NCBI GenBank assembly: GCA_029260595.1
Contig: JAJDCY010000010.1
Coordinates: 483,675-547,674 of the forward strand
Direction of reading: 5' to 3'
Source: Phycisphaeraceae bacterium
GTDB taxonomy: Bacteria > Planctomycetota > Phycisphaerae > Phycisphaerales > Phycisphaeraceae
DNA length: 64,000 nucleotides
Shown: positions 3,322 through 28,934 of the stretch, piece after piece
Layout: each line of letters begins with the position of its first letter
How positions within the stretch are numbered: the stretch's first letter is position 1
Program-made: the position numbers and the translations under genes
The notes under the pieces: model-generated
Seen by the model: the letters and a program-made list of their open reading frames with translations, nothing else
The model's database searches: none
Told to the model about the DNA's origin: nothing

Positions 3322-3328
3322 TCTCAAC

Positions 3329-3901
3329 TCAGCCAGATCGGTCAGCCAGACGGGCTTCGACGTCCTCAAGCAGTGCGTGGATCAGCACCGCGTGCGCTTC
3401 CTGGATCCGCGCGGTCGTTTCGTCCGCAACGATCAGATCGACCGTCGCCAACCCCTTTGCCGGGCCGCCGTCGCGCCCGAGCAACGCGATACTCTCGATC
3501 CCGGCACACCGCGCCGCGTCGAGCGCTTTGATCACGTTCGACGACCGCCCCGACGTTGAGATCGCAACCAGGACATCGCCCGGTTGCGCAAACGCATTAA
3601 CCTGTCGGGCAAACACCTCGGCAAACTCATAATCATTGCCCGCCGCCGTCAGTGTGCTGCCTGAGTCCGAAAGCGCGATCGCCGGGTAAGGCCGGCGCTC
3701 CCGATCGAACCGCACCACGAACTCCGTCGCCAGATGCGCCGCATCCGCCGCACTCCCGCCGTTCCCACACGCCAGCAACTTCCGCCCGCCCGCAAGGCAG
3801 TCGGTGATCAGCCCGGCCGCACGCGTGACCCCGCTCTCCAGTCCGCGGAGCGATTCCACAGCGGCGACGCTGGCCGTGATTAGTTGCTGGTAGGGGCTCA
3901 T
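3329..3901 (-). CDS. gmhA: Phosphoheptose isomerase (sedoheptulose 7-phosphate isomerase), SIS domain
   Basis: This 190-residue protein consists of a single SIS domain. It converts sedoheptulose 7-phosphate to D-glycero-manno-heptose 7-phosphate, the first step to the ADP-heptose used in LPS core. The motifs ACGNGGSAADAAHLATEFVVRF and VLVAISTSGRSSNVIKAL bind the sugar phosphate; the C-terminal QEAHAVLIHALLE carries the conserved His of the active site. Length matches the family. It is convergent with kdsB, 7 bp between the two stop codons, and the next gene upstream (pyrG) is divergent. Confidence 0.92.
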   Translation of the reverse strand: MSPYQQLITASVAAVESLRGLESGVTRAAGLITDCLAGGRKLLACGNGGSAADAAHLATEFVVRFDRERRPYPAIALSDSGSTLTAAGNDYEFAEVFARQVNAFAQPGDVLVAISTSGRSSNVIKALDAARCAGIESIALLGRDGGPAKGLATVDLIVADETTARIQEAHAVLIHALLEDVEARLADRSG

Positions 3902-4029
3902 GTTCGCGCTTCTTGTGCAGGACGACCCGCGAGGCTCCGCATCAACCTATCGTTGCCTATGCGCCGCCCGCAAGTCGATCGACCATCTCGGATACTTGTG
4001 TTCCGACGCCGACCGTGATACGGTAGGTC

Positions 4030-14279: not shown

Positions 14280-15506
14280 TCAGTTGCCCGCCATGACTCG
14301 GCCAACGCTGAAGATGGGCATGAGCATGGCTACCGCGACGAACCCGATGATCGAGCCCATCACGACGACCATCAGCGGTTCAATGAATTGTGTTGTGGTC
14401 TTGACCGCGTCGTCGAACTCCTCTTCCGTGACGGTCGCGACGCGGGACATGACCTGGCCGAGACGCCCGGCCTTCTCGCCACTATAGATCATCTGGGCGA
14501 TCGACCGCGGGATCAGGCGCGACTGAAAAAGCGGCTCAGATAGTTGGGCTCCCTGGCGAAGCCGATCATCGACGCGCTCCCACAGGTCATCGTAGTAGAC
14601 GTTGCCCGTGACGTACCTGACGATCGAAACCGAATCGAGGATTGGCACGCCTGCATCGATCATCGTCCCCATGGTCCGGCAGGCCCGGCTAAGGTAAAGG
14701 CTCGAGAATAGATTTCCAATAACTGGGGTTTTCAGTTTCAATCCGTCGAACAACCGACGACCCAATGCCGTGCGGACCAGCAGCATGAACCCGATCACAG
14801 CGGTAATGCTCAACACAAGCCAGTAGTACCAGTAGTGAACAGCTCCGGAGCTGGCCGAGAGCAGCGCCTGGGTTGGCAGTGGCAGCACGGCGTTGCGCGT
14901 TTCGTAGATCGTGCCGAAGCGCGGCAGAACAAACATGAGCAGGAACACCGTGACACCGATCGTCATGAACAGCATAAACAACGGGTATGTCAGCGCGCCG
15001 CGGGCCTGGCGCAGGATCTGTTGCTCCTTTGCCAGGTACTCCGAGATACGCCCGAGCATTGGGCCCATCGTTCCGCTAGCTTCGCTCGCGCGGACTAGCC
15101 CGGTCATCACTTTCGGGAAGACCTTGGGAAATCTTTTCATAGCCAGAGAGAGTTCACCGCCGGCCTGAACAGTCGCGGAGATGTCCTCAAGGACTGCTTT
15201 GAAATTGTCGTTACCGACCTGTCTGGTCAGACAATCCAGCGCCTCACTCATCGGGACCCCTGTCTCGATCATGATCGCCAATTGGTGTGTGAAGTAGATC
15301 ACCTCCGCACGCTTGACGCGCTTGGCTCGGGTCTCGATCGGGATCAGGTCGCCGTCGAGATCGTCGTCGGCCACCTCGGTGAGCTTGGTGACGAACTTCC
15401 CCTCGGTATGAAGGATCTGACTGGCCTGGTCCACACTCTGCGCGGAAACCTGACCCGTGAGCAGGGTGCCCTGGCCATTGCGAGACTGGTACGTATATCG
15501 TGGCAT
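14280..15506 (-). CDS. gspF: Type II secretion/type IV pilus inner-membrane platform protein (GspF/PilC)
   Basis: This 408-residue polytopic protein forms the platform that the assembly ATPase turns to insert pilins. It begins MPRYTYQSRNGQG, the family start (Y.Y.a.d..G). It carries two repeats of the T2SSF domain, each with the F-type loop (FTHQLAIMIETGVPMSEALDCL and ACRTMGTMIDAGVPILDSV). Hydrophobic segments lie around 170-240 and at the C-terminus (QFIEPLMVVVMGSIIGFVAVAML). It is the last gene of the minus-strand cluster and is separated from the ATPase gene by 180 bp, unusually long for this otherwise overlapping operon. Confidence 0.95.
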   Translation of the reverse strand: MPRYTYQSRNGQGTLLTGQVSAQSVDQASQILHTEGKFVTKLTEVADDDLDGDLIPIETRAKRVKRAEVIYFTHQLAIMIETGVPMSEALDCLTRQVGNDNFKAVLEDISATVQAGGELSLAMKRFPKVFPKVMTGLVRASEASGTMGPMLGRISEYLAKEQQILRQARGALTYPLFMLFMTIGVTVFLLMFVLPRFGTIYETRNAVLPLPTQALLSASSGAVHYWYYWLVLSITAVIGFMLLVRTALGRRLFDGLKLKTPVIGNLFSSLYLSRACRTMGTMIDAGVPILDSVSIVRYVTGNVYYDDLWERVDDRLRQGAQLSEPLFQSRLIPRSIAQMIYSGEKAGRLGQVMSRVATVTEEEFDDAVKTTTQFIEPLMVVVMGSIIGFVAVAMLMPIFSVGRVMAGN

Positions 15507-15564: not shown

Positions 15565-15699
15565 CCGATAGAGTTATCGGCATTCTGACGGTCAGACCGA
15601 ACATACCGGTCGACCGGTACCGGCGTATTGTAACGGTGGTAGGGGTTGTAACGACTGACAGTCGGCGTTGGCTGTCACTTGGCGCATCAGTTGACAGCC
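15565..15699. repeat. Palindrome-dense spacer between ATPase and platform genes
   Basis: Four inverted repeats are packed here: CCGATA-gagt-TATCGG (15565-15580), CGGTC-a-GACCG (15589-15599), the perfect 16-bp palindrome TACCGGTCGACCGGTA (15604-15619), and GGCTGTCA/TGACAGCC (15670-15677 and 15692-15699) around the ATPase stop codon. None is followed by a T-run on the minus strand, so they do not look like simple intrinsic terminators. They could be operators or RNA-processing structures. Confidence 0.6.
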
Positions 15700-17441
15700 G
15701 TAGCGGTGATCACTTCCTCGGCGGTGGTCAAGCCAGCACGGATCTTCGCGATCCCGTCTTCCAACAGAGTGGTGTAGTCGCCCGGCTCCAGCAAACGCTT
15801 CATCTCCTGGACCGTATCCCCACGGGTAATCGATTCCAATACCGCATCATTGGGGGTGAACAGTTCATAAATCCCGACGCGACCAGCGTAGCCTGTGTTA
15901 TGACACTTGACGCAGCCTGTGCCGCGATAGAGTGTTTCGAACGGTGGGCTTGCGTGCTCAAGTAGTTGTGAGATGCGCGGATTGTCGCTAGTCGGCGGGA
16001 CGGTGGTTTTGCAATTGCTACAGATGCGACGGATCAGGCGCTGAGCGAGGATGCCTTTGACCGACGCCGCCACGAGGAACGGTTCAACCCCGATGTTGAT
16101 CAGGCGGGTGATCGCACTCATCGCGTCATTGGTGTGCAGCGTTGACAAGACCAGGTGCCCGGTAAGCGCCGCCTGCGACGCGATCAGCGCCGTCTCCGGG
16201 TCGCGCACCTCGCCGACCATCAGAATGTCCGGGTCCTGCCGCAGCAATGATCGCAGCGCACTGGCAAAGGTGAACTTCGCCTTGTCATTAACTTGGAATT
16301 GATTCACCCCGGTGACATTGTTCTCGACGGGGTCTTCCACCGTACAGATGTTGACTGATTCGTTATTGATCTCATTAAGCGCCGCATACAGCGTCGTCGA
16401 TTTGCCGCTCCCGGTCGGGCCGGTCACGAGAACGACCCCGTTCGGCTGGCGGATCAACCCGCGGAACCGCTCGAGCAGCGTGGGCGGGAACCCGAGTTGT
16501 TCGAGCGTGGCCATGCCCGACCGGTTGTCGGTGACACGCATCACGACCTTCTCGCCGAACTTGCCCGGCATCGTCGACACGCGAAGGTCGATTGGTCGGC
16601 CCTGGATCATGACCGTGATCCCACCGTCCTGGGGCTGGCGCCGTTCCGAAATATCCAGCCCGGACATGATCTTGATCCGGCTAACGATTGCCGGCGCGAG
16701 TTGGACAGGCGGCTGCAACTTCTCGAATAGCTTCCCGTCGATTCGGAACCGGATGCGCAACGATTGGTTGCCTGGCTCTATGTGTATATCGCTGGCGCCT
16801 TCGCGCACCGCGGTGTGGATCGTGTAGTTCACCAGTTTGATCACCGGCGAATCACTCGCCGCGGACTCCAGGTCCGTCAGGCTTGCCAGCGGGTTTTCGA
16901 CGATCGCGAGGTCGTCCGCGTGCAGATCATCCACGATGTCATCGATCACGAAAACGTTCGCGTCAGACAGGTATGTCTGAAGCGTCTGTCGGATATCGTT
17001 GAGTGTCGCGACGACCAGTTGCACCGAGTGGCCGGACAGCCGCTCGAGCTCTTCGAGGAGAAAAACATTCGCCGGCTCGTGCACCGCGACGGTCAGCTTG
17101 CCTTCGACCAGAAACAGCGGCAACACACCTTGCTGGTCTACGAACTCGCGCGGGAGCAGCTCGATGACAACCGGGTCGGCAACCTTGGGCGTGATCCGCG
17201 CGAACGGTAGGTCGTACGCCTTCGCGACCGCCTGGACAACCTGCTCTCGTGTGACGAAGTTCATTTCGACGAGGATCTCGCCGAGCAGCTTCCTCTTCCC
17301 GCGGTCTCGCTGGTACGACAGTGCCTGATTGATTTGTTCACGCGTGATCACCCCCTGGTCAAGCAGAAGATCACCCACGCGGATCGGGGCGGCGTTGTCG
17401 CCGTCGGCCGGTCGTGTTGGCTTGGTCGTTGCTAGTGTCAT
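15687..17441 (-). CDS. gspE: Type IV pilus/type II secretion assembly ATPase (GspE/PilB) with MshEN-like N-terminus
   Basis: This 584-residue hexameric ATPase powers pilin polymerisation from the cytoplasm. Residues 21-44 form a 24-residue motif (R-V-G-x-x-L-x-x-x-G ... I-x-x-x-L-x-x-Q) that matches the c-di-GMP-binding MshEN consensus. A second, more degenerate copy follows at about 52-75 (Gly replaced by Asn61, final Gln by Ala). Walker A is GPTGSGKST at 341-349, the Asp box is around 367-374 (TVEDPVE), and Walker B is ILMVGEVRDPE around 406-416. Zinc-binding cysteines are Cys474, 477, 510 and 513. Its ATG overlaps the STAS gene's stop by 4 bp (ATGA). No PilT-type retraction ATPase is present in the window. 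Confidence 0.95.
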   Translation of the reverse strand: MTLATTKPTRPADGDNAAPIRVGDLLLDQGVITREQINQALSYQRDRGKRKLLGEILVEMNFVTREQVVQAVAKAYDLPFARITPKVADPVVIELLPREFVDQQGVLPLFLVEGKLTVAVHEPANVFLLEELERLSGHSVQLVVATLNDIRQTLQTYLSDANVFVIDDIVDDLHADDLAIVENPLASLTDLESAASDSPVIKLVNYTIHTAVREGASDIHIEPGNQSLRIRFRIDGKLFEKLQPPVQLAPAIVSRIKIMSGLDISERRQPQDGGITVMIQGRPIDLRVSTMPGKFGEKVVMRVTDNRSGMATLEQLGFPPTLLERFRGLIRQPNGVVLVTGPTGSGKSTTLYAALNEINNESVNICTVEDPVENNVTGVNQFQVNDKAKFTFASALRSLLRQDPDILMVGEVRDPETALIASQAALTGHLVLSTLHTNDAMSAITRLINIGVEPFLVAASVKGILAQRLIRRICSNCKTTVPPTSDNPRISQLLEHASPPFETLYRGTGCVKCHNTGYAGRVGIYELFTPNDAVLESITRGDTVQEMKRLLEPGDYTTLLEDGIAKIRAGLTTAEEVITATAVN

Positions 17442-17782
17442 GGTGTGCTGTTCAGGCTGGCATGCGATGCTTCGACCGTGTCACAACAGATCAGTCGCCC
17501 GCGCAGGCGCGTCATCTCGAGGACCGTATGGATGTTTTGTGTCGACCCGGCCAGGCGGATCTCGCCAAGATGATCAGCGCAGGTTGTCTGGATCCACAGA
17601 AGCGTTTCGAGACCTTTCGAGTCAATCGATTCCAACTCGCTAGCGTCGATAACGATGTCGCGGACAGACTGGCTCGTCAGATTCAGAACGGTTTTACGTA
17701 TCCGGTCTGTCTGGTCGGCGCCGAGGTCGCCGCTGAGCTTCATTACCGCGAAGCTACCGTCAGTGGTACAATTAATATTCAT
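17438..17782 (-). CDS. STAS-domain protein (anti-sigma-factor antagonist type)
   Basis: This 114-residue protein consists of one STAS domain (SpoIIAA-like). The segment DIVIDASELESIDSKGLETLL contains the conserved strand and the Asp-Ser pair; the Ser in DSKG is at the position phosphorylated by partner-switching kinases. Such proteins act by binding a kinase or anti-sigma partner, not by catalysis. The gene overlaps the HD-GYP gene by 11 bp upstream and the ATPase gene by 4 bp downstream, so it is translationally coupled to both. No RsbW-type kinase or PP2C phosphatase is present in the window. Confidence 0.88.
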   Translation of the reverse strand: MNINCTTDGSFAVMKLSGDLGADQTDRIRKTVLNLTSQSVRDIVIDASELESIDSKGLETLLWIQTTCADHLGEIRLAGSTQNIHTVLEMTRLRGRLICCDTVEASHASLNSTP

Positions 17783-19454
17783 CGGTCAGGTCTTCCGCTG
17801 AGCCGGCCTGCGCCTGGTGCTCGGCGAGCATCTTAAAAAATGGATCAAAGTCGAGGTGTACGAACAGCTCCGCCAACTGCGGGTCGAACTGGCTCCCGGC
17901 GCAACGCTCGATCTCCACGATCGTCTTGTCGTGGGTCAATGAGCTGCGGTACGTCCGGTTTGAACTCATCGCGTCAAACGAGTCGGCCAGGCAGATCAGT
18001 CGGCCGAAGATCGGGATGTTCTCACGCTCCAGCCCGTGGGGGTACCCGCGCCCGTCCCACCGCTCGTGGTGGTAAAGCACGCCGGGGATCAGATCCTGCA
18101 TCTGTCGGATGTCTGAGAGAATCCCCGCGCCGATGAGAGTGTGCTGCTTAATCAGATCGAACTCGTCGTCGGTCAGCGGCCCGGCTTTGCACAGAACCGA
18201 TTCGGGCACACCGATCTTCCCCACATCGTGTATCAGGGCCGACAGGTAGACGCGATTGACGGCAGTCGCATCTAGCCCGGCCGCCACCGCGAGCTGTTTC
18301 GACAGCTCGGCGACGCGCTCGGAGTGACCGTGGGTGTAGCTGTCCTTCGCGTCGATCGAGGCGGTCAGCGCGTGCAGCGTGCCCATGAACATCGCCTGCA
18401 TATCGTCGAAGTGGATGGCGTTTTCCAGGAAGATCGACAGGCTGCTGCCCAGCGACCCGCTCAGCGTCGAGTCGATGCTGCTGATATGCGATCCGTCGAG
18501 TTTATCCCCGCCGAACAGAATCCCGACCGTTCGGCCGTTGATCCGCAGCGGGACGATCAGCAGCGTCCCGGCGATCTGTTCCAGGCTGGCGATCCCAAGC
18601 TTGCGTGTGTCGTTGATTACGGCGGGAAATGCCGGCTCGGGGTTTAGTTGCCGCAGCATCAGCTCGTCACCGATCCGCCGGATCTGCTCCGTGTCGCAGC
18701 CGATTGTCCCAGCAGTAAACACCGCACCGGCCAACTCATTGAGACGCGGCTCGGTGGTGGTAAGCACCAACGCCATCCATCGCAGCCCGACGACCTGCCG
18801 CAACTCCCGACAAGCCTCGGTGAAGAAGCTCGCCGGCGTCTGTTTGACGGTCATCCCGGCGGATAGCTTGTACAGCAGGCTCATCTCTTCGTACGACTCA
18901 CCTAGTTGTAGGCTCATCGTGTACAGCTCAGCCGTCCGCCGCTTGATCTCGGTCGCGTCCTGCTGCATCCAATCAAGCAGCGCTGCGACGCGGCCGGCCT
19001 CCGCCGGGCTCACCAGGCAGTCGGGTTCGATCCGATCGACCACCGATAGATGGTCAATCTGGTTTGTGTCGCAAAGAAGCGTCAGCCACTCGCTGTCCAG
19101 AAGATCACGTGTCAGAACGATTACGACCTCGAATGTCCCGTGTTCGCCGGGTGGGTTGTCATGGTCCCAGCGTCCCGGCGTGAGCGGCACCAGCCAGACG
19201 CCTTGCCAGACCTGCACCGCGCCGCCTTGCGAATTGCGAAGCGCCGAAAGGTGTTGTCCCACCACGGCGGCAAACTGTGGAGAATCAGTGATCAATCGCT
19301 CGATCCAGCGCGACGGACCGTGCGCCGTGACCCAGCCATCCGACGCAACGGATGCGAGCGTCAGGCCGAGTGTCTCGAGCCGGTGTCTGATCGGATTCGC
19401 AGGGCTCGCAGGGCTGTATTGGCTCGTGGCTGCGGTCAAGACGCTTCTTTCCAC
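17772..19454 (-). CDS. GAF and HD-GYP domain protein (cyclic di-GMP phosphodiesterase)
   Basis: This protein of up to 560 residues has a poorly characterised N-terminal region (1-190), a GAF domain (about 195-350) and an HD-GYP domain (about 365-535). All HD-GYP residues are present: HSERV (376 onward), HDVGK at 409-413, the His in KQHT, HHERWDGRGYP at 462-472, and DSFDAM...RTYR. It should therefore hydrolyse c-di-GMP to pGpG/GMP. No membrane segment is seen, so it is cytoplasmic. Two starts are possible: GTG 19454, or TTG 19439, which overlaps the receiver gene's stop as TTGA and has AGAAG upstream. It lies between the receiver and STAS genes in one overlapping block with the assembly ATPase. 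Confidence 0.92.
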   Translation of the reverse strand: MERSVLTAATSQYSPASPANPIRHRLETLGLTLASVASDGWVTAHGPSRWIERLITDSPQFAAVVGQHLSALRNSQGGAVQVWQGVWLVPLTPGRWDHDNPPGEHGTFEVVIVLTRDLLDSEWLTLLCDTNQIDHLSVVDRIEPDCLVSPAEAGRVAALLDWMQQDATEIKRRTAELYTMSLQLGESYEEMSLLYKLSAGMTVKQTPASFFTEACRELRQVVGLRWMALVLTTTEPRLNELAGAVFTAGTIGCDTEQIRRIGDELMLRQLNPEPAFPAVINDTRKLGIASLEQIAGTLLIVPLRINGRTVGILFGGDKLDGSHISSIDSTLSGSLGSSLSIFLENAIHFDDMQAMFMGTLHALTASIDAKDSYTHGHSERVAELSKQLAVAAGLDATAVNRVYLSALIHDVGKIGVPESVLCKAGPLTDDEFDLIKQHTLIGAGILSDIRQMQDLIPGVLYHHERWDGRGYPHGLERENIPIFGRLICLADSFDAMSSNRTYRSSLTHDKTIVEIERCAGSQFDPQLAELFVHLDFDPFFKMLAEHQAQAGSAEDLTDEY

Positions 19455-19843
19455 TCTGGGCTGACACGCTGCGCGACTAGTTCTTGCACGCGGGCGAGTA
19501 CCTCTCTTGGGCTGAACGGTTTGGTGATCACGCTCGTGATGTTGGCTTGATCGAGGTATGCCGACGTGAGGCTCGCCCCGCGCGCGGTCAACAACAACAC
19601 CGGTGTCTCACGCGTCTCCGGATAAATCGCAAGTTGTTCGGCCAACTCGATCCCGGTTACGTACGGCATTTGATAGTCGGTGATGATGACACTGGGGCGT
19701 TCGCGGCGCGCGATCTCGAGCGCATCGCGTCCGTTCGCCGCGGTTACCACCAGGTAGCCGGCGTTGTGCAGCTTCAGCCCGAGGACGTGGAGGATATGCA
19801 CCTCGTCATCGGCGATTAGGATCAAGGGTTTCTCACCCGCCAT
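19436..19843 (-). CDS. Response regulator receiver protein (CheY-like)
   Basis: This protein of 135 residues is a stand-alone REC domain: ILIADDE (acidic pocket), phosphoacceptor Asp in VIITDYQMP, a Thr in LLLTARG and Lys in ITKPFSP. It has no output domain. ATG 19843 follows GGGGAGG at a good distance; a GTG at 19854-19864 in the same frame is less likely. It overlaps the HD-GYP gene and may feed phosphorylation signals to it or to the ATPase. The cognate kinase is not adjacent; a hybrid kinase exists at 46638-49112 but there is no evidence linking them. Confidence 0.9.
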   Translation of the reverse strand: MAGEKPLILIADDEVHILHVLGLKLHNAGYLVVTAANGRDALEIARRERPSVIITDYQMPYVTGIELAEQLAIYPETRETPVLLLTARGASLTSAYLDQANITSVITKPFSPREVLARVQELVAQRVSPEWKEAS

Positions 19844-19864
19844 CGCTGGGTCCTCCCCGACCAC

Positions 19865-20018: not shown

Positions 20019-21239
20019 TCACTCGCCTTCTATGCTGATGGACACCGCCGTGAGCAGTTGTCGAGCGCGTGCATCATCCGGGTTGCGGCGTAAGGCCTCG
20101 TTGTACGCGTCGGCCGCGTCGGAGGCACGCCCGGCTTCTTCCAAGGCAATCCCCCGCAGCAGGACCGGTGCGGCGCTATCGGGCGCCAGACTCGCCGCTT
20201 GCTCGTACATCTCCAATGCTCGGTCGATCTGCCCGCGCTGATACCAAACCATTCCGGCCAGCAGGAACCCTTCGTGGCGCGACGAATCAAGTTCTTCAAT
20301 ACGACCGGCAGCCAGCAGCGCCCCCGTGGTGTCACCTTGCTCCCACGACAGTTGGCCCAGGCTGACCCAGGACTGAATGTCGTTTGGATCGTCGTGCGTA
20401 AGTTTGATGTAGATCGCGCGTGCGTCAGCCGACAGTCCGGCTCCCTGATACGCACACGCCAGCGCCCGCTTCAGGTCCAGCCGCGTCGAGTGCCCCGGCT
20501 CAGAACCCAGGCGACGCAGGTTCTCAATCGCGTCTCGGTACCGCCCGGCCGCGACCTGCGCCAGCGCAAGATCCTCGAGAATCTGGAGATCCTCAGGCTG
20601 CAGCAGCGCCGCTTCCTCGAAGTACTCCGTAGCCTTCTTGAAGTCGCCCTTGATGCCGTACAGATGTCCGACAGCCGTCCGGATCCCGGCGTTCTGATCG
20701 AAATATACAACCCGGTCGACCAGCAGCTTGAGTGCCTCATCTTCCCGGTCCAGTGCGACGAGCATCTCAGCAGTTGCGAGTAGATAGCTCACGTTGTCCG
20801 GTGCCTGGTCGTATGCGGCTCGGTATTTTTCGAGCGAAGCATCGAACCGGCTCCATCGCTGCAGAATGATCCCCTGGAAGTAGCTCGCTGTCGGAAGATC
20901 AGTCTCCTGCGCCATATCGAGCGCCGCTTGGAACCGGTGGTAGCTACGCTCGAGCTGTCCGCGCTCCAGGGCGACCCGACCCGACAACACCAACAGATGG
21001 GGGTTCTTCTGGTCGACACTGATCGCCGATGCGAGTGTCTTCTCGGCTTGGTCCAGATCACCGGCTTCGAAGTGCTGCTGCGCGACCTTGGCCATGGACG
21101 CCGATCGGACGTTGTTCCAGCGGTTGTTGGCGTCATCGATGTTTTTGGCGTGTTGACGCTGGGCGGCTTCGCACCCGGTCAGGCCAAAGACCACCAGACC
21201 AAACACGGACATCTTCAGGAATGCGGCTAGTCGATTCAT
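20019..21239 (-). CDS. TPR-repeat lipoprotein, probable pilotin/assembly factor (PilF/PilW-like)
   Basis: This 406-residue protein has a lipoprotein signal (VFGLVVFGLTGC, lipobox LTGC), so it is anchored in a membrane, probably the outer one. The rest is a solenoid of tetratricopeptide repeats, for example HFEAGDLDQAEKTLASAISV, DLALAQVAAGRYRDAIENLR and AADAYNEALRRNPDDA. In type IV pilus systems TPR lipoproteins assist secretin assembly; its place immediately after the secretin gene supports that role by inference. ATG 21239 is taken as the start, with GGAG upstream; an in-frame TTG precedes it. Confidence 0.85.
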   Translation of the reverse strand: MNRLAAFLKMSVFGLVVFGLTGCEAAQRQHAKNIDDANNRWNNVRSASMAKVAQQHFEAGDLDQAEKTLASAISVDQKNPHLLVLSGRVALERGQLERSYHRFQAALDMAQETDLPTASYFQGIILQRWSRFDASLEKYRAAYDQAPDNVSYLLATAEMLVALDREDEALKLLVDRVVYFDQNAGIRTAVGHLYGIKGDFKKATEYFEEAALLQPEDLQILEDLALAQVAAGRYRDAIENLRRLGSEPGHSTRLDLKRALACAYQGAGLSADARAIYIKLTHDDPNDIQSWVSLGQLSWEQGDTTGALLAAGRIEELDSSRHEGFLLAGMVWYQRGQIDRALEMYEQAASLAPDSAAPVLLRGIALEEAGRASDAADAYNEALRRNPDDARARQLLTAVSISIEGE

Positions 21240-21262
21240 CAACGCGTTCTCCAGGCTTTCTC

Positions 21263-21319
21263 ACCTACCCGGGGCATTGATAAGGCGGGGCCGGGCACAA
21301 CCCGGCCCCGTTCGTAGGT
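21263..21319 (-). other. Stable hairpin between secretin and TPR lipoprotein genes
   Basis: A perfect 10-bp GC stem CGGGGCCGGG / CCCGGCCCCG (21286-21295 and 21301-21310) has a 5-nt loop. An outer pairing ACCTAC / GTAGGT (21263-21268 and 21314-21319) extends it. No T-run follows on the minus strand, so it is more likely an RNA-stabilising or processing hairpin, or a weak/Rho-assisted terminator, than a standard intrinsic terminator. Confidence 0.55.
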
Positions 21320-21322
21320 CAA

Positions 21323-23959
21323 TCAGTCGATATCGCCGACGGGGACCTCCGCCGTGCTGGCCGAACCGTCAGCCTCGGCGCTGTCCTCGGGGAACCATTC
21401 CTCAATGGAACTCGAAGCGTCAGCCGACTCCGTATCGCTCGCGTCCGCCGCGGCATCGCTGGCTTCTTCCGTAGGATCACTCGAATCCGCCGTAGCATCA
21501 GCAACGTCTGCAGTGGCATCGCTCTCGGCCGAAGCGTCAGCGTTGTCGGCCGCCGCCGTCTGGTCCGCGTCCACCGCGTCACCAAAGCCCGCGTCCGAAG
21601 CGAACTCATCGGACTCGCCCTCGGCCGCCGCAACCTCAGCGGCATCGCCCGCATCAAAAGCCTCGTCACCGGCTTCTTCTGCAGCTTCGTCCGTCGTCGC
21701 GGCGAAGTCGCCGGCCTGCTCGTCACCCTCAGGCGATGCCGGGCCCGTGCTGATCGGCACACCATCAATCAAGATGGCTTCTTCAGTGTGTCCAGGAGCC
21801 TGCGGAGCAATCGGGTCGGGATCAACTTCATCGTCGTTGAAACCGATTGCGTCGTCCGCCGGGTCGATGGCTTCGATGTGGGCGACTTCGTTGCCGAACG
21901 CCTCAGCCGTTTCGCCGTTGGTGTCTGAGTCGGCAACAGTGTTAGTAGCGTCGGCGATAGTCGCATCAGCACCCGCCTCGGCATCGTCAGCCGCATCGGC
22001 CGCAGCCGTGGCGTCTTCAGCCGCCTGTTCGTCGAGCGGCCAATCCACCGCCACCGTGTCGCCTGCATCGGCATCCGCGTTGGTGTCTGCGTCAGTATCC
22101 GCCGGCGTCCGGGCCGAAGCCGTTGCCGCCGGGGCAACCGGTCCGGACTGACCACTGGCATCAGCCATGCCACCTTCGAGCTTCTTCTCGATGATCTGGT
22201 CGACCGCTTCGATCAGGCTGCTGCGGTGCGGCCAGAAGATCCGCTCGCCGGTGATCTTCTCTTTGATCTGACGGGCATCGCGGTGGTTCGGGTCGAGCGT
22301 TAGCGCGATGTTGACCCACCACAGAGCCTTCTTCATGTCGCCTTCGTTGTAGTACTTCAGGGCGTACCGCACATGGCTGGCCGTCATCCGAGTGCGTGAC
22401 CAGGGCAGCAACCCTTCGCGGGCACCCAGCCGGGTCATCTCGATGTAGTCCGCGGCGCGATCACCCTGGGCGTACAGCACCTCATCGTTCATGATCGTCG
22501 GCTTAATCAGGAAGATCACCTCTGACCGCTCGTTCTTGTCGTCATAGCCCTTGAACGCGGCGCCCAGCAGCGGGATGTCGCCGGCGATGGGCACCTGCTC
22601 GCGTGAGATCTCGGTGTCTTCCTTAAACAGACCACCCAACACGACCGTTTGGCCGTTTCGAACCAGGATGTTGCTGGTCATCTCCTGCGTCGTCTGGTTC
22701 GGGATCACGATGCCCGAGATCGCGGTCGTCGTGCCGTCCGAGATCGACGGGCGGATCTCCAAGCGGATGAACTCGTCCTGGCTAACAAACGGCCGCACGG
22801 AAAGCTGCGTACCAACCTCCAGGAAGTTCACCGTTTGCGTTGTCGTCGATTCGGTCGCGGTCGTGCTCAGGTAGCCGAGCTTGGCACCGACGAGCAGGTC
22901 GGCACGCTGGCGGTTGAGAACGAGCAGCTTCGGATTCGCGATCACAGTCGTGTCTGCGACGCGGTCCAGTGCACGCATGAACACGGCGAAGTCTTCCTGG
23001 ATGATGCCCAGCTTGAAGCCCGCATCACCGGTAAGCGTGCTACCCACCGTGCTCTGCAGCCCTTCGCCGGTCCCGGCCGCACTGACGATCGGAGTTGCCG
23101 GCGAGCCAACAACAGATCCGGAGATCAGCGTGTCGACCACATTCAGCGGACGAAGGAAGTTGCCCAGCTCGTAGTCGATCAGGATGCTGAAGTCGACGCC
23201 GAATGCGTTGGCCTCGTCGAGTTGTGCCTGCAGAACGCTGGCTTCGATCAGAACCTGCTTGGGCTTGATATCCAGTTCTTTGATGACGGCCAGGATCTCA
23301 TCGACGTTCTCGGGGTAGTCGCGGATGATGACCATGTCGCTGTAGGCATAGGTGTTTTCACCGGCATCCGAGATGCTCGGCTGAATGCCCGCGGCCGGCG
23401 CGGCGCTCATCGATATTGAACCCGCGGGCGACAACAGCGGCGATACAAACGTCGAAATGTCTTCGGCCGACATGTAGTTCAGCCGGACGATCTTGTGCAC
23501 CAGGCTACGCTCGGCTTCCTCGATCGCCTGGATCTCAGCCGTCGTGTAGACGTAAACAAAGTTGCCCTTCTCGCGGTATCCGAAGCCGTTCGGCTGCAGG
23601 ATCGCGTCAAGAGCCTCGTAGAAGTCGACTCCGTAAAGGTCAGCCGACACCGACCCGGCCACATTGCGGCTGGCGACGATGTTGCGCTGCGACTGAATGC
23701 TCAGCAGTTGGAGGACCCGCGACAGCTCGAGGTCTTTGACGTGCAGGTCAATCTGGCCGAACGACCCGACATTCACTGTCTGGTCGGCCGAGATGCCTTC
23801 GTCGCCAATCGTGGCGGCGTCCTCGGCGAACAGATCGGTCTCTGTCTCACTGTCGCCCGTGTCGGCGGCGCCGTCAGCCCCGATTACCGGACCGGCACAG
23901 ACCCACCCTGTCAGGCAAAAAAAAACGATCCACCGAAGATTCTTGCTGTTGCTAAGCAT
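21323..23959 (-). CDS. gspD: Secretin (GspD/PilQ family) with long acidic C-terminal tail
   Basis: This 878-residue outer-membrane channel has a signal peptide (RWIVFFCLTGWVCAGPVIGA), an N0/STN-like domain (INLHVKDLELS-type strand pattern, about 50-125), an N1-like domain (IVRLNYMSAEDISTFV to IIRDYPENVDEILAVI), and the secretin core (about 330-500). The core includes VPIAGDIPLLGAAFKG, the family signature near the C-terminal gate. After the core comes a short TPR-like helical pair. The last 261 residues follow: rich in Asp, Glu, Ala, Ser and Thr, with no Lys or Arg at all. The start ATG has AAAGGAG upstream. It is the outer-membrane exit of the machine encoded at 14280-28515. Confidence 0.93.
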   Translation of the reverse strand: MLSNSKNLRWIVFFCLTGWVCAGPVIGADGAADTGDSETETDLFAEDAATIGDEGISADQTVNVGSFGQIDLHVKDLELSRVLQLLSIQSQRNIVASRNVAGSVSADLYGVDFYEALDAILQPNGFGYREKGNFVYVYTTAEIQAIEEAERSLVHKIVRLNYMSAEDISTFVSPLLSPAGSISMSAAPAAGIQPSISDAGENTYAYSDMVIIRDYPENVDEILAVIKELDIKPKQVLIEASVLQAQLDEANAFGVDFSILIDYELGNFLRPLNVVDTLISGSVVGSPATPIVSAAGTGEGLQSTVGSTLTGDAGFKLGIIQEDFAVFMRALDRVADTTVIANPKLLVLNRQRADLLVGAKLGYLSTTATESTTTQTVNFLEVGTQLSVRPFVSQDEFIRLEIRPSISDGTTTAISGIVIPNQTTQEMTSNILVRNGQTVVLGGLFKEDTEISREQVPIAGDIPLLGAAFKGYDDKNERSEVIFLIKPTIMNDEVLYAQGDRAADYIEMTRLGAREGLLPWSRTRMTASHVRYALKYYNEGDMKKALWWVNIALTLDPNHRDARQIKEKITGERIFWPHRSSLIEAVDQIIEKKLEGGMADASGQSGPVAPAATASARTPADTDADTNADADAGDTVAVDWPLDEQAAEDATAAADAADDAEAGADATIADATNTVADSDTNGETAEAFGNEVAHIEAIDPADDAIGFNDDEVDPDPIAPQAPGHTEEAILIDGVPISTGPASPEGDEQAGDFAATTDEAAEEAGDEAFDAGDAAEVAAAEGESDEFASDAGFGDAVDADQTAAADNADASAESDATADVADATADSSDPTEEASDAAADASDTESADASSSIEEWFPEDSAEADGSASTAEVPVGDID

Positions 23960-24010: not shown

Positions 24011-24565
24011 CTACATCTCGAGCCAAACTTCAAATCCCATCTTTCTCAGGAGCACCCGCCGGTTCATTACGCGAACCAGGGTGAACCCGTCGATTTCCTG
24101 TCCCACGGCAAGCAGCCTTCCGCTGATCACCGCTCGTTCCCGCCCGTCGTGAAGCGTTGAATGCAGCCGAAGCGCGGCCGCTTGCTCAACAATCTCTCGG
24201 GCCTTTGGCACTTCATCGGTCGCATCGGGTCGCGACTTTTCTACCACTTCGGGAAGTGGGGCAGGATTCCCGCGAGAGGGGTATCGGCTGGCATCTACTG
24301 CAAACAGATCCCGCCCGATCAACGCCGGTAGGTCCAGCTCTATCGGCTGTAGGGGTTCGGCGGTCTGACGCTCTGACAGCGGATCGCGTTGCGGCAGCAC
24401 GTCGAGGGCCACTTGTTCCGGCGTTGCGACAGCCGTACGCGGCACCTGCTTAAGAAGAAGCCTCCCCCACATCAGCAGGGCGACCATCACCAGGCAGAGC
24501 ATGGTCGAGAACTTGCCCTTCTCCGCCATCATCCGCCGCAGGAGCTTCCGTGCCCGCGCCTTCAT
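24011..24565 (-). CDS. Small membrane-anchored pilus/secretion protein (GspC/PilP-like)
   Basis: This 184-residue protein has a short basic N-terminus, one transmembrane segment (MLCLVMVALLMWGRLLL) and a periplasmic part. The part ends in a beta-rich module (AVISGRLLAVGQEIDGFTLV, RVLLRKMGFEVWLEM) resembling the HR/pilot domain of GspC or PilP, which contacts the secretin N0 domain. Its start overlaps the stop of the PilO-like gene by 4 bp, and the secretin gene follows 51 bp later. The assignment rests on position and fold pattern rather than a strong motif. Confidence 0.65.
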   Translation of the reverse strand: MKARARKLLRRMMAEKGKFSTMLCLVMVALLMWGRLLLKQVPRTAVATPEQVALDVLPQRDPLSERQTAEPLQPIELDLPALIGRDLFAVDASRYPSRGNPAPLPEVVEKSRPDATDEVPKAREIVEQAAALRLHSTLHDGRERAVISGRLLAVGQEIDGFTLVRVMNRRVLLRKMGFEVWLEM

Positions 24566-25107
24566 GGCCCACCCCCGGTCTCCGGGATGAAGAATGCAGA
24601 CAGATCGATACTGATCTCGAGCAATGGATCGCTTTCTCGCATCGGTCGGCGGACCTGTACGTGATTGATCTGCACCAGCCGCTGTATCGCTTCAACACGC
24701 TGCAAATAATCGTGGACCTGAGTGAACGACGCACGGAACCTTTGCTTGACCGGGATCACCCCGTATTGCGGGCCGATGACCGGCGGCTGTGTCTCCGTGA
24801 TCACACTCTGCGCCTCAATTTCGGCAAGGCTTGTACTGAGCGACCGCAGCAGATCCGCGAGATGATCGCCTTCGGGCACGTACTTTTCAGCCTGCGCGGC
24901 GGCGTTCTGGAGTTGCACCACCTGCCCCGCCAGTCGGATCAGCCCGCTCCCGCCCATGTCGCTTTGCTCGACGAGCTGCTGTGACTGCTCGACCGCTCGC
25001 CACAGGTGATTCTCGCGTGCCTTGCGCGGCATCCAGAATCCGATGATGAACGCGGCAACGAGCCCGCACACCACCGCTAACATCTTGGCTTGGTCGCGAT
25101 GGAGCAT
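24562..25107 (-). CDS. PilO-like inner-membrane alignment-complex protein
   Basis: This 181-residue protein has one N-terminal transmembrane helix (LAVVCGLVAAFIIGFWM), a helical linker (QQLVEQSDMG ... QNAAAQAEKYVPEG) and a ferredoxin-like periplasmic domain (VKQRFRASFTQVHDYLQRVE, LEISIDLSAFF). This is the PilO/GspM layout. It lies between PilN and the GspC/PilP-like gene, in the standard MNOP order, with a 1-bp overlap upstream and a 4-bp overlap downstream. Confidence 0.75.
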   Translation of the reverse strand: MLHRDQAKMLAVVCGLVAAFIIGFWMPRKARENHLWRAVEQSQQLVEQSDMGGSGLIRLAGQVVQLQNAAAQAEKYVPEGDHLADLLRSLSTSLAEIEAQSVITETQPPVIGPQYGVIPVKQRFRASFTQVHDYLQRVEAIQRLVQINHVQVRRPMRESDPLLEISIDLSAFFIPETGGGP

Positions 25108-25772
25108 CAGGGGGATTGCTCCTGCACGGCAGTGGTCGTGACGACCGGCCGATCAAGCCGGACCCGCGCGTCCACGCGGAACCGACGCGCGACGAACGTG
25201 TCGTACGAGACCTCCTTGGTGTAGGGAAGATTTACACTCTTGAAAAGCGGGTGATCGCTTAGAGTGCCAATCAACTCGGCGATCACTAGATCGTCCGATG
25301 CCAGCCCGTCGATCTGAACATCGATCACGGGTTGTCGCAGGTCGCCTACCGCCGGATGTTTCGTCGCCGCGGGCGCCGCTTCGCCTTTGTCGGCATTGGG
25401 GTTCGGCGTAGGTGCTCTCAGCGAGACCCCGGTCATCGCGATTCCATCCGGCATCGCCTGTGCGATACACCCGAGCACCTGCGACGCTCGCACAGGCGCT
25501 GCGAGTTGCTTTCTGACCCGAGCATGATTGGCCAGCGTGTGATACTCGCACTCCAGCCTCGCCATTTCCTCCAGACGATCTCGCGCCGCGTTGCTCTGCT
25601 CAGTTAGATGCGACGCGTACGCTTCGAGTGACGTTAGCTGCGCATTCGCATACAGGTGCCCTCCGAAAAGGCTGCAAACCATCAATACCGTAAGCATCAC
25701 TTGCCGAGTGACCCGGCGCCGCCTCGCGTACTCGTCCAACAATGACTGGGGCAGGAAGTTGATCTCGTTCAT
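25107..25772 (-). CDS. pilN: PilN-like fimbrial assembly protein
   Basis: This protein of 221 residues starts MNEINFLPQSLLDEYARRRR. The short cytoplasmic N-terminus with INFLP is the conserved PilN peptide that docks on PilM. A transmembrane helix follows (VMLTVLMVCSLFGGHLYANA), then a coiled-coil (LTEQSNAARDRLEEMARLE) and a periplasmic ferredoxin-like domain. The longer reading frame up to 25835 is rejected because ATG 25772 gives the family start and a 4-bp overlap (ATGA) with pilM. Confidence 0.85.
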   Translation of the reverse strand: MNEINFLPQSLLDEYARRRRVTRQVMLTVLMVCSLFGGHLYANAQLTSLEAYASHLTEQSNAARDRLEEMARLECEYHTLANHARVRKQLAAPVRASQVLGCIAQAMPDGIAMTGVSLRAPTPNPNADKGEAAPAATKHPAVGDLRQPVIDVQIDGLASDDLVIAELIGTLSDHPLFKSVNLPYTKEVSYDTFVARRFRVDARVRLDRPVVTTTAVQEQSP

Positions 25773-26893
25773 GCCGCGCCCCGCTTCGCGTTCCCGTGGA
25801 TCTGGCGCATCGAGAGCCCGACGGCGACCGCCCACTTGCCGATCCCCATGCCTGTCCCGCTCTCCTTAGAAACCGCCCCGAGGTCGAGCCCTGTGACCGG
25901 TGCGTTGGCATCCAGTTCGAACGACAGGTTGTCCCCGAGCGTCCGCACCAAAATCGGATCATGGGCTTGTCCGCCGAAGACCCGCGCAACGCCCGGACGC
26001 GAGCCGCGGAACGTCACGTTGAAGTAACGCAGGCAGAGATTGATCTCGTTGGCGAGTTGCTCGACTGGGCGTTTGATCGCATCGACCACCGCATCCTTAG
26101 CGCTCACGGGGTCAACGCTGCCGTCGTCAGGGATACCGACGCCGCCCCGACCGGCGCATGACTGACGCACCCGCGACGCGATACCCGGCGAGATACCGAG
26201 CCATTCCGCGACCGCCTCGTCGAACACCCGCCCGCCGATCTCGATCAACTTGAAGAAAAGAACCCGCCCATTGCGCGTGATCAATACTTTTGAACAGGTG
26301 TGCCCGATGTCGATCGCCATGTCGGCCTGATCGTTCAGGTCTTCCGTGCGGCGCGACGTGATGCAGCGGGCCAAGGCTCCCGGCACAGCGTCGACCGCGG
26401 CCGGGATCAGCCCACACTTTTGTATGACATGGACGTGCTCGTCCACCAGCCCGGGCGGTGCGCCCATAAGGATCACCTCACGGCGAAGGTCCTCGCCCTG
26501 GCGGACATCCCCCGCGTCGAAGTACTGCACCTGACCCCCGTCACCGCCTAGCAGCAACCGATCCTTGGCCTCCCAGGCCACCGCCGCGCGCAGTTCATCG
26601 TCCGGCATGGCCGGCAGCCGTAGATTCTTGTACTGGAGGGACCCGGCCGGGAGGCAGCTTACCACCTGTCGCCCCTGGAACGATCCCTCGTCCAGCAGCC
26701 CACGGATCAGTTTAGCCAATGCGGTTGTTCGCTCTGTGCGATCGGTGGGAATGTCGCCGGGGATCTCGGTGTGCGCAGCCGCGACGGGTGCCCAACCGTT
26801 CTGGACATGTCGCAATTGGAGCATCCGGATCGAGTGGCTGCCAACGTCCAGCCCGATCGGTTGCCTACCGCGAAGAAATTTGCCTCCGAGCAC
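25769..26893 (-). CDS. pilM: Type IV pilus assembly protein PilM (actin-like ATPase)
   Basis: This 374-residue cytoplasmic protein has the actin/FtsA fold of PilM. Motifs include IGLDVGSHSIRMLQL (phosphate 1), AMPDDELRAAVAWEAKD (the PilM SHS2-like segment) and MAIDIGHTCSKVLI (phosphate 2), and VFGGQAHDP near the adenosine site. PilM binds PilN at the inner membrane and links the alignment complex to the ATPase. It starts with GTG, preceded by GGGAG at about 6 nt. The usual E(I/L)xR motif in the PilM core is not obvious. Confidence 0.9.
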   Translation of the reverse strand: MLGGKFLRGRQPIGLDVGSHSIRMLQLRHVQNGWAPVAAAHTEIPGDIPTDRTERTTALAKLIRGLLDEGSFQGRQVVSCLPAGSLQYKNLRLPAMPDDELRAAVAWEAKDRLLLGGDGGQVQYFDAGDVRQGEDLRREVILMGAPPGLVDEHVHVIQKCGLIPAAVDAVPGALARCITSRRTEDLNDQADMAIDIGHTCSKVLITRNGRVLFFKLIEIGGRVFDEAVAEWLGISPGIASRVRQSCAGRGGVGIPDDGSVDPVSAKDAVVDAIKRPVEQLANEINLCLRYFNVTFRGSRPGVARVFGGQAHDPILVRTLGDNLSFELDANAPVTGLDLGAVSKESGTGMGIGKWAVAVGLSMRQIHGNAKRGAA

Positions 26894-26956: not shown

Positions 26957-27493
26957 TTACGGCTCCTCCGGTTCCTCAACAATCTCCGCGATCGTCACCC
27001 TGCCGGTGAACGGCGCGACCGAAACCCGGAAGCGCTGCTCCCCAGCCGTCAGCTCCAGCGACCCGCCGTCGCTCGTCGGCGTGCCCAGCGCGTCGAACTC
27101 CAGGATCAACGGTGTGTCGTCGTCGAAGTCGACGTTGGCGAGCGCTACACCGTCGAACCGTGCATCGTTGGCGAAGTCGATGATGTAATTCCCGCCCGCG
27201 GTCGGCGCCTTCCAGGTGACATTGAGCGTGTTTCCACTCCCGTCGGTGACCCGGTACCGGTTATTCGTCGTGTCGAAAACCACTCGCCGCACTTCCTGCT
27301 GGGCGATGGCTTCGTTCTGAGCGATCAGGATGTCTGAGATGACCATACGGCCCGCGGCCTGAACCCCCAGCGTCCCGGCCTGCATCATGTGTGGCACGAG
27401 CACCGCCCCGGCCAACCCCATGATCGCGACAACGATCAGGACTTCGACCAGCGTAAACGCCCGCTCGCCGGGCAACCGACTTGATACGTGCAT
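26957..27493 (-). CDS. Minor pseudopilin (GspH-like) with type IV prepilin signal
   Basis: This 178-residue prepilin has the N-methylation/cleavage signal GERA-FTLVEVLIVVAIMG: the residue before the cleaved Phe is Ala rather than the usual Gly, and Glu5 is present. The hydrophobic helix is followed by a beta-rich head ending in an acidic tail (IVEEPEEP). Processing needs a prepilin peptidase, which is not in the window. It lies 64 bp before pilM and is probably part of the same transcript. Confidence 0.88.
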   Translation of the reverse strand: MHVSSRLPGERAFTLVEVLIVVAIMGLAGAVLVPHMMQAGTLGVQAAGRMVISDILIAQNEAIAQQEVRRVVFDTTNNRYRVTDGSGNTLNVTWKAPTAGGNYIIDFANDARFDGVALANVDFDDDTPLILEFDALGTPTSDGGSLELTAGEQRFRVSVAPFTGRVTIAEIVEEPEEP

Positions 27494-28011: not shown

Positions 28012-28515
28012 TTAGGTGCCACCGCCTGAGAAGGTCTCGACGTCATCGGAGTCGAGGCCGACGTTGGCCAGATCGATCGCATCGCTCATCGCGATCAGCA
28101 GCACGCCGGTGGCCTCGTCGTAAGACCAGCCGTCGGTCGAAGCCGCGCTACCCGCGTCACCAACGAGCGAGCTGTTCGTGAAAGGATTGACCGGGGCCTT
28201 CTGCAGGTACGGGCCGAACGGGTTACCCGTTCCGGTCGCACCGGCGGCGTCGGTCTCGAGCGTAAGTACTTCCCAGTCATCCGTGCCCTGCTGCATCAGC
28301 GTCAGAGTCGGGTAGTTACCGTTGTGCTGAACCTGGTACAGCTCAAGCTGGCTGCGGATGGTCTGCAACTGCGAAACCACACTGCTGCCCTTGGCCGTCT
28401 CACTGGCACTGGTGAACTGCGGGATGACGATCGCGGCCAAAATGCCGAGGATCACCACCACAATCAGGATTTCAACCAAGGTGAACCCTTGATTCTTACT
28501 TCTGCGAGTCATCAT
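28012..28515 (-). CDS. gspG: Major pseudopilin/pilin (GspG-like)
   Basis: This 167-residue prepilin starts at ATG 28515 with GAGGAG just upstream. The signal NQG-FTLVEILIVVVILGILAA has Gly at -1 and Glu at +5, the classic class III signal for prepilin peptidase. The helical stem continues as QTIRSQLELYQVQHNGNYPTL, which is the typical GspG (T2SS) continuation. A short, acidic, Gly/Ser-rich head follows. It is first in the minus-strand cluster and is followed by a strong terminator, as expected for the most abundant subunit. Confidence 0.92.
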   Translation of the reverse strand: MMTRRSKNQGFTLVEILIVVVILGILAAIVIPQFTSASETAKGSSVVSQLQTIRSQLELYQVQHNGNYPTLTLMQQGTDDWEVLTLETDAAGATGTGNPFGPYLQKAPVNPFTNSSLVGDAGSAASTDGWSYDEATGVLLIAMSDAIDLANVGLDSDDVETFSGGGT

Positions 28516-28934
28516 GCTTACTCTCCTCAAAAAAGAACTGAACCAAACCCGTTTTGTCTGCGCGGGTCCACACGGACTCCGACCACTTCAATACCGCTTC
28601 GCTGGCCAAACTTCCGCTTGGCCTGTCCGGTCGCCTACTCTCTGTGCGGGCCCGCAAACAGAGCATTGACGCCATGTCCTACCCGGTGTTCCATCGTCCA
28701 GTCCCGACCGCGACTTTACCGATCCCTTGAGGCATCGGCGTCACAGACCCTTTTGAGGGCGGACAACCTGTCACCGCGTGTGCCCGGTAAACAAACGATT
28801 CGGATCCGTGAAACGCAAGCCGATGGCGTAAGAATTGTCAGTTCAGGCCGATATGTGCCGCTTGGGCGCCGTCACAACCGGACTCGCCACTGTCTCTTTC
28901 CAACCCGCCCCACCCTCGACCGCCGAAATGCCCG
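28516..28934. other. Intergenic region upstream of the pilin gene
   Basis: These 419 bp lie between lepA's stop codon and the pilin start, both on the minus strand. The region should hold the promoter for the pilus cluster. I found no convincing -35/-10 or -24/-12 pair and no RNA gene. A plus-strand frame across it (28324-28938) overlaps the pilin and has no recognisable character. Confidence 0.4.

Follow-up and report, generated by a model that had tools for sequence, protein, structure and literature searches.

The window analysed here, 64,000 nucleotides from a planctomycete of the family Phycisphaeraceae (GenBank assembly GCA_029260595.1, contig JAJDCY010000010.1, positions 483,675 to 547,674), encodes a PilQ/GspD-type secretin of 878 residues (21323..23959, minus strand; Pfam Secretin, 1.8e-39) that ends in a long acidic tail. 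Long acidic tails are a real and recurrent feature of the secretins in this order. Their length and acidity are not conserved, acidity being a trend and not a requirement, and comparison of the sequences indicates that a short motif close to the C-terminus tends to be kept while the length and charge of the preceding linker vary freely. Judged from this pattern of conservation, the most likely arrangement appears to be a flexible linker with a terminal docking peptide. We propose, tentatively and with considerable reservation, that the tail is an analogue of the S-domain of other secretins and presents this peptide to a periplasmic partner, for which the tetratricopeptide repeat (TPR) lipoprotein encoded next to the secretin would be the most likely candidate.

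The acidic tail and its variation among relatives

The tail begins near residue 599 and runs to residue 878 (21326..22165, minus strand, as for all parts of the secretin and its operon given below). It contains a single arginine, R617, which is the final Lys or Arg of the secretin and lies behind the onset of the tail. As an earlier note, made from the letters of the window alone, had claimed, the residues following R617 form a stretch of 261 (21326..22108) that on direct count contains neither Lys nor Arg, with a net charge of -79, and that consists mostly of Asp, Glu, Ala, Ser and Thr (72%; A 70, D 50, E 29, T 20, S 18, G 17, P 13). The DADxD/AADA-type repeats described in the same note did not hold up: DADxD does not occur, AADA occurs twice and D-x-[DN]-x-[DN] four times, none of them in a tandem array, and Tandem Repeats Finder detected no array at a score of 30 in the tail. 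The tail is of low complexity and does not form a repeat array.

At the Lys plus Arg frequency of the secretin body (0.0836), and with residues assumed to be independent, 261 residues devoid of both would be met with a probability of 1.3e-10. The run is the longest of its kind among the stop-to-stop frames of at least 100 aa in the window, the next-longest comprising 105 aa. An overlapping open reading frame (ORF) in another frame of the tail DNA (21319-21768) is rich in Arg; the depletion of Lys and Arg is therefore a property of the protein. Across 125 loci, 39 Lys/Arg-free runs of at least 120 aa were found in 2594 stop-to-stop ORFs of at least 150 aa, and 32 of the 39 reside in the secretin, in a control that compares the secretin with its neighbours only and not with whole genomes, the loci having been chosen for the secretin. 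The tail had no match among plasmid records, a search that did not extend to phage and E. coli records, and no paper on this secretin tail was found among openly licensed papers by their titles and abstract starts.

For comparison, 151 genomes were searched for the secretin, 150 of which gave a match, and 125 loci, counting the window, entered the comparison. Excluded were G028 (no match), genomes with weak matches only (G002, G012, G019, G063, G069, G073, G090 and G146) and those with split genes (G049 and G105), while 15 matching genomes are outside the locus set (G054, G070, G074, G080, G086, G096, G108, G114, G116, G120, G128, G136, G140, G142 and G144). G001, in which the gene is cut by a contig end, was left out of the tail counts, and G017, with an incomplete start and a whole tail, was retained. 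From outside the order, 40 loci of the same class were used (145 of 198 genomes matched at an E value of 1e-50), and 24 loci of the phylum (L160-L183) were looked at, a match being present in 148 of 149 genomes.

In the 124 complete secretins of the order the tail measures between 0 and 484 aa (median 174.5). The value of 0 belongs to G066 (locus L064) and reflects an apparent frameshift, acidic sequence and a long Lys/Arg-free run following downstream in another frame (1859-2581, 2520-4355); the next shortest tail has 2 residues. G066 was omitted from charge correlations and from the comparison of order and class, and was counted for tails, TPR adjacency, motif scores and co-occurrence. Net charges extend from +3 to -132, the window tail ranking ninth. 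A net negative charge is found in 103 of the 108 tails of at least 40 aa; 37 carry 0.2 or more net negative charges per residue, and seven lack Lys and Arg altogether. The median tail charge is -21 in the order (n=123) versus -4.5 in the rest of the class (n=40; Mann-Whitney p 1.5e-7, uncorrected for relatedness). In three relatives with bodies 54-56% identical to that of the window secretin, G006, G016 and G021, the tail measures 70, 93 and 128 aa and has a net charge of -6, -3 and 0, respectively, and in G024 and G015 it comprises 2 and 25 aa; a TPR lipoprotein gene adjoins the secretin gene in all five. The comparison of length and charge that the earlier note had called for thus bears out that these tails are usually negative, but acidity is not required. 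The note had also held that close homologues lacking the tail in an otherwise functional machine would speak for an expansion with no conserved role; as far as length and charge are concerned, these five genomes provide such homologues, their machines being assumed to work.

Sequence conservation within the tail is low. In genus g8 (six species) 12.8% of the tail columns are invariant as against 72% of the preceding 500 columns, and the value is 36% for the last 14. The otherwise variable tails of this genus (L101, L102, L016, L017, L018 and L021) contain the conserved islands EAPWRVELTG, VEVxDPDQLFADDQ and IFEFV. A tail from outside these, that of L245 (G318; 407 residues, net -72), has a Cys- and DxDxDG-rich end that is unlike other tails and that we take to resemble thrombospondin type 3 repeats.

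That the tail might bind Ca2+, as the earlier note suggested, fits its high Asp content (50 of 261 residues) and one partial DxDxDG site. Regular expressions for the generally known EF-hand and RTX patterns detected neither a complete EF-hand loop nor an RTX motif in the window tail, and a DxDxDG-like site of any kind is present in 3 of the 124 tails. A calcium- or cation-binding tail is therefore very improbable.

A conserved motif near the C-terminus

In the window secretin the motif reads TAEVPVG (residues 869-875, 21335..21355). It was recovered by an expectation-maximization (EM) motif search and validated across families, and its consensus is roughly T-[AT]-[ES]-V-[PDE]-[TV]-[DE], usually at most 10 residues away from the tail end. 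For the motif searches the minimum tail length was 20, 30 or 60 aa, and removal of redundancy left 96-99 tails. Without any positional information, the search of 96 tails returned xxxTAEVPTD with a log-likelihood ratio of 194.8, whereas three shuffled sets gave 134-138; of its 93 hits 45 fall within 15 aa of the C-terminus, the hit in the window being 3 residues away from it and scoring 11.6 bits with the (in-sample) position weight matrix (PWM). Of 116 tails, 36 match the regular expression V[PDE][TV][DEGN], composed after inspection of the tail ends, within their last 18 residues (shuffled mean 3.4, maximum 10); elsewhere in the tails it is matched in 23 of 1058 stretches of that length.

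Training and testing were then separated by family. After training on family f1, the motif was detected among the terminal 25 aa in 17 of the 64 tails from other families when the threshold was 4 (shuffled 5.1 +/- 2.1) and in 10 of the 64 when it was 6 (2.0 +/- 1.3), while training on the others retrieved 19 and 18 of the 35 f1 tails (6.4 +/- 2.2 and 2.7 +/- 1.6, respectively). None of 400 shuffles reached any of these counts, and internal 25-residue stretches scored much less often (43 and 9 of 406, and 31 and 14 of 177, at thresholds 4 and 6). The shuffles retain composition and not relatedness, a concern that is answered in part by the split into families. Four genomes of a single genus, which count as one event, have the motif in tails of just 33-35 aa with net charges of 0 to -3 (10.2-12.6 bits), and G006, G016 and G021, whose tails are near-neutral, likewise keep it (7.4-11.4 bits; both score ranges from the in-sample PWM). 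The motif is therefore separable from length and acidity. The region beyond the barrel can be described as containing a candidate for a conserved docking element comparable to a pilotin-binding S-domain, cross-validated and absent in a minority of the secretins.

Other patterns in the tails are less clear. The tails from the rest of the class, taken alone, yield a weaker motif signal (110 versus 77-94 shuffled), and in family f84 [TNK]ELP[VAMI] is seen by eye near the end of 8 of 12 fetched tails. A shared amphipathic helix in front of the tip, which had been perceived by eye, is not claimed: when the last 14 residues were masked, the searches provided no common pattern. The score for f1 (161 versus 111-128 shuffled) derived from the EAPWRVELTG island of one genus (five species) and from Ala/Pro/Glu-rich stretches, and for f2 (178 versus 140-154) GALxLDWPLS in three genomes was the only exception. 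A 7-residue search over the full tails returned a diffuse pattern of Trp, Leu and Pro (125 versus 90-100), most of its hits lying away from the C-terminus (7 of 70 at 15 aa or less). The window tail has a hydrophobic patch, SSSIEEWFPED (residues 849-859, 21383..21415), noticed by eye, and similar patches were seen by eye in the tails of relatives; motif searches did not establish it as common to them.

The variability of the tail could also be the outcome of neutral or nearly neutral expansion, in which the region behind the post-barrel module would be unconstrained, acidity would simply follow from an acidic protein and the tail would be harmless without further function. The span of tail lengths (2-484 aa, leaving aside the apparent frameshift) and charges, the low conservation in g8 and the near-neutral tails of the relatives at 54-56% identity are what such a process would produce. 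The closest relative found, G009, does not contain the motif, and tail charge follows the charge of the secretin body (rho 0.56, 101 genomes). What neutral expansion does not account for is a cross-validated C-terminal motif that persists in four short tails of one genus, nor the predominance of negative tails (103 of 108). Acidity as a mere trait of the genome was also considered and set aside, as over the same 101 genomes tail charge does not follow that of the TPR lipoprotein (rho 0.04; 0.50 in f2, 0.26 in f1 and 0.36 in f3). On balance we regard neutral expansion as rather doubtful.

An electrostatic or entropic brush, an idea that the earlier note had raised, appears unlikely. With 13-15 copies, a stoichiometry adopted from other secretins, about 1000 negative charges would surround the periplasmic side of the pore, where they could repel neighbours, clear the surroundings of the channel or space the machine from the peptidoglycan. 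The net charge of -79 per subunit and the frequency of negative tails in the order, more negative than elsewhere in the class, are in line with this idea, but relatives manage with short or near-neutral tails and the conserved tip is left unexplained.

The TPR lipoprotein and modes of pilotin recognition

The gene for the TPR lipoprotein (20019..21242), which we consider a candidate pilotin and partner on account of its TPR families (Pfam), lipobox, structural model and adjacency, is located directly downstream of the secretin gene in 115 of the 125 loci, and one of the ten misses is due to a contig end. With the same hidden Markov model (HMM) the lipoprotein was found adjacent in 37 of the 40 class loci. 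In the phylum loci a downstream hit with the TPR HMM is present in 9 of 24, some of them weak, and two loci have no room downstream. The lipobox cysteine, Cys24, is conserved in 99% of the weighted alignment of 115 relatives, and a regular expression that includes the signal-peptide context recognizes 89 of the 115. The protein does not reach the cut-offs of the curated models for PilW (TIGR02521, 72.3 versus 154 bits) and Tgl (NF033762, 29.2 versus 225 bits). Its predicted structure is a superhelix, helical throughout (pLDDT 90.5), with the superhelical TPR domain of O-GlcNAc transferase as the best match in the Protein Data Bank (PDB). R89, E93, Y121, Q/E128, R129 and E159 are nearly invariant. 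Positions 2, 5, 9, 12 and 13 of a TPR repeat face the groove, and with helix boundaries taken from the model the conserved residues occupy such positions in repeats 2-4 (permutation p 0.0003, the repeats having been picked after conservation was seen); over all nine repeats the contrast is 0.41 versus 0.34. The model thus suggests that the lipoprotein likely has a conserved groove.

The published precedents point both ways. In the RcpA-TadD system the last residues of the Tad secretin RcpA, situated behind a disordered S-domain of about 35 residues, bind in the groove of TadD, a TPR lipoprotein, and the last four are essential (PMC10499894). The present secretin resembles RcpA in having a TPR lipoprotein as a neighbour; it differs in a linker that reaches up to 484 residues in the order, is mostly acidic and carries its motif usually at most 10 residues before the end, and docking is a proposal here. 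In T4a pilus systems, on the other hand, the pilotins Tgl, PilF and PilW have been modelled on the beta-lip of the secretin (PMC10653833). The window secretin shares with T4a PilQ the best-scoring secretin family, the PilM/N/O operon and the TPR lipoprotein, whereas its barrel is followed by a helical module of about 100 residues and a tail of 280, compared with just eight residues after the barrel in PilQ of P. aeruginosa (PMC10499894). How pilotins recognize type IV pilus secretins that lack an S-domain is described as unsettled (PMC10499894, PMC10653833).

Pilotins of type II secretion systems (T2SS) are small lipoproteins and are not known to be TPR proteins. A T2SS secretin likewise possesses an extension after the barrel, the S-domain, whose helix (alpha-12) at the C-terminus docks an outer-membrane lipoprotein in pilotin-dependent systems, as for PulD-PulS and EpsD-EpsS (PMC6532946). 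No folded S-domain was recognized in the window secretin, where a TPR-like module and then the low-complexity tail follow. The earlier note's view of known secretins as ending in a short S-domain fits those of T2SS; PilQ of P. aeruginosa has its eight residues in this place.

On the explanation we prefer, the secretin would end in a periplasmic linker, the tail, that evolves fast, is probably disordered and has a docking peptide of the type T-[AT]-[ES]-V-[PDE]-[TV]-[DE] at its end. An acidic composition poor in Lys and Arg may keep this linker soluble and extended and would be set by loose selection on composition, not by a specific site. The peptide would bind a periplasmic partner during targeting or assembly of the secretin, and by analogy with the tip of RcpA and its TPR pilotin TadD, the adjoining outer-membrane TPR lipoprotein is the best candidate for this role. 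The earlier note had already named it as a candidate; the adjacency itself is very strong (115 of 125 loci), yet a long tail is not needed for it.

A number of observations weigh against this proposal. The motif is not universal (81 of the 124 tails score at least 5 bits, in-sample); it is lacking in G009 (64% identical, tail of 301 aa, net -31; -3.4 bits), and the version trained on the order does not carry over to class members outside it (5 of 39 tails versus 2.5 shuffled, one tail of less than 20 aa being left out). It ends 0-17 residues short of the C-terminus (median 4), whereas TadD holds the very C-terminus of RcpA. The co-occurrence of motif and TPR adjacency is not significant (p 0.13-0.30), and the lipoprotein also adjoins tail-less secretins. 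All 26 TPR lipoproteins beside motif-less secretins retain the six groove residues (R/K, D/E, Y/F and Q/E allowed); the groove is therefore conserved for a different or an additional reason. The AlphaFold model of the secretin (pLDDT 33.0, two sequences) is unusable, supports nothing on the tail and is too poor to serve as evidence for disorder or docking.

Alternatively, the TPR lipoprotein could be a pilotin that recognizes the beta-lip or barrel of the secretin, as modelled for Tgl, PilF and PilW; the tail would then be irrelevant to it, and the motif, if functional, would serve another partner. Besides that modelling (PMC10653833), the conservation of the groove irrespective of the motif speaks for this alternative, as does the presence of the lipoprotein next to 14 of the 16 secretins with the shortest tails (among the 14 is G066 with its apparent frameshift) and next to the tail-less class member L176. 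It leaves the C-terminal motif without a partner, however, and RcpA-TadD demonstrates that a TPR pilotin can make use of a C-terminal tip (PMC10499894). We consider recognition of the beta-lip possible, though doubtful.

We give a modest chance to the idea that the docking linker represents a PilQ-like lineage with a new docking mode, in which a long, freely evolving linker ending in a TAEVPTD-type peptide is captured by the TPR lipoprotein or another envelope protein. If so, the pore would be recruited or tethered in the planctomycete envelope at distances beyond those that the S-domains compared here permit. With a linker free in length and charge and a tip motif that tends to persist, the secretin family would provide a natural deletion series that separates composition from recognition, and the tip motif, as a short peptide, is directly testable and the part of the tail worth testing.

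Domain architecture of the secretin and the surrounding operon

The secretin beta-barrel domain comprises residues 330-490 (22490..22972; PF00263, 135.5 bits, cut-off 27.5). Matches to PilQ in the PDB extend to residue 495, and the barrel ends about there. The N-domain matches remain below the Pfam cut-offs (Secretin_N, 27.5 versus 28.2 bits; STN, 21.5 versus 28.4 bits). Among the NCBIfam models PilQ (TIGR02515) gives the best score with 219.7 bits, below its cut-off of 284.35, and GspD (TIGR02517) gives 202.3 bits, below 351.35. Between barrel and tail lies a helical, TPR-like module (about residues 502-596, 22172..22456), on which Pfam makes no call. It is suggested by a match of residues 532-564 to the consensus TPR protein CTPR390 in a PDB comparison (E 7.6e-5) and by helices at 502-514, 523-538, 542-555, 560-570 and 580-596 in the otherwise poor secretin model. 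By eye, a similar module follows the barrel in distant planctomycete secretins whose tail is very short or missing (for instance L161, L163, L164 and L166-L168). As several of these end soon afterwards, the module seems older than the tail.

The secretin gene is part of an operon that resembles those for type IV pili or type II secretion. It comprises pilin-type genes, PilM, PilN, PilO, a protein in PilP position, the secretin, the TPR lipoprotein, a receiver-like protein (named from its own sequence), a GAF-like/HD protein, a PilB/GspE-like ATPase and a PilC/GspF-like protein. The protein in the position of PilP/GspC (24011..24565) has no match in Pfam or NCBIfam; homologues are encoded upstream of the secretin in many relatives, and its position suggests a PilP role. 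PilO (24562-25107), PilN (25107-25835) and PilM (25769-26893) were assigned by Pfam, as were the pseudopilin/pilin genes at 26957-27493 and 28012-28530 (N_methyl), the latter with 67.1 bits for GspG (cut-off 88.85). The PilC/GspF-like protein (14280-15506) and the PilB/GspE-like ATPase (15687-17441) are named after their best NCBIfam matches, which are below the curated equivalog cut-offs. The ATPase contains an MshE-related cyclic-di-GMP-binding domain (NF053729, 58.7 bits, cut-off 38), and the same part of the operon (15687-19864) encodes an HD_5-domain protein (PF13487, with a GAF match below the cut-off) and the receiver-like protein. Together, these three features suggest that the machine may be under the control of cyclic di-GMP.

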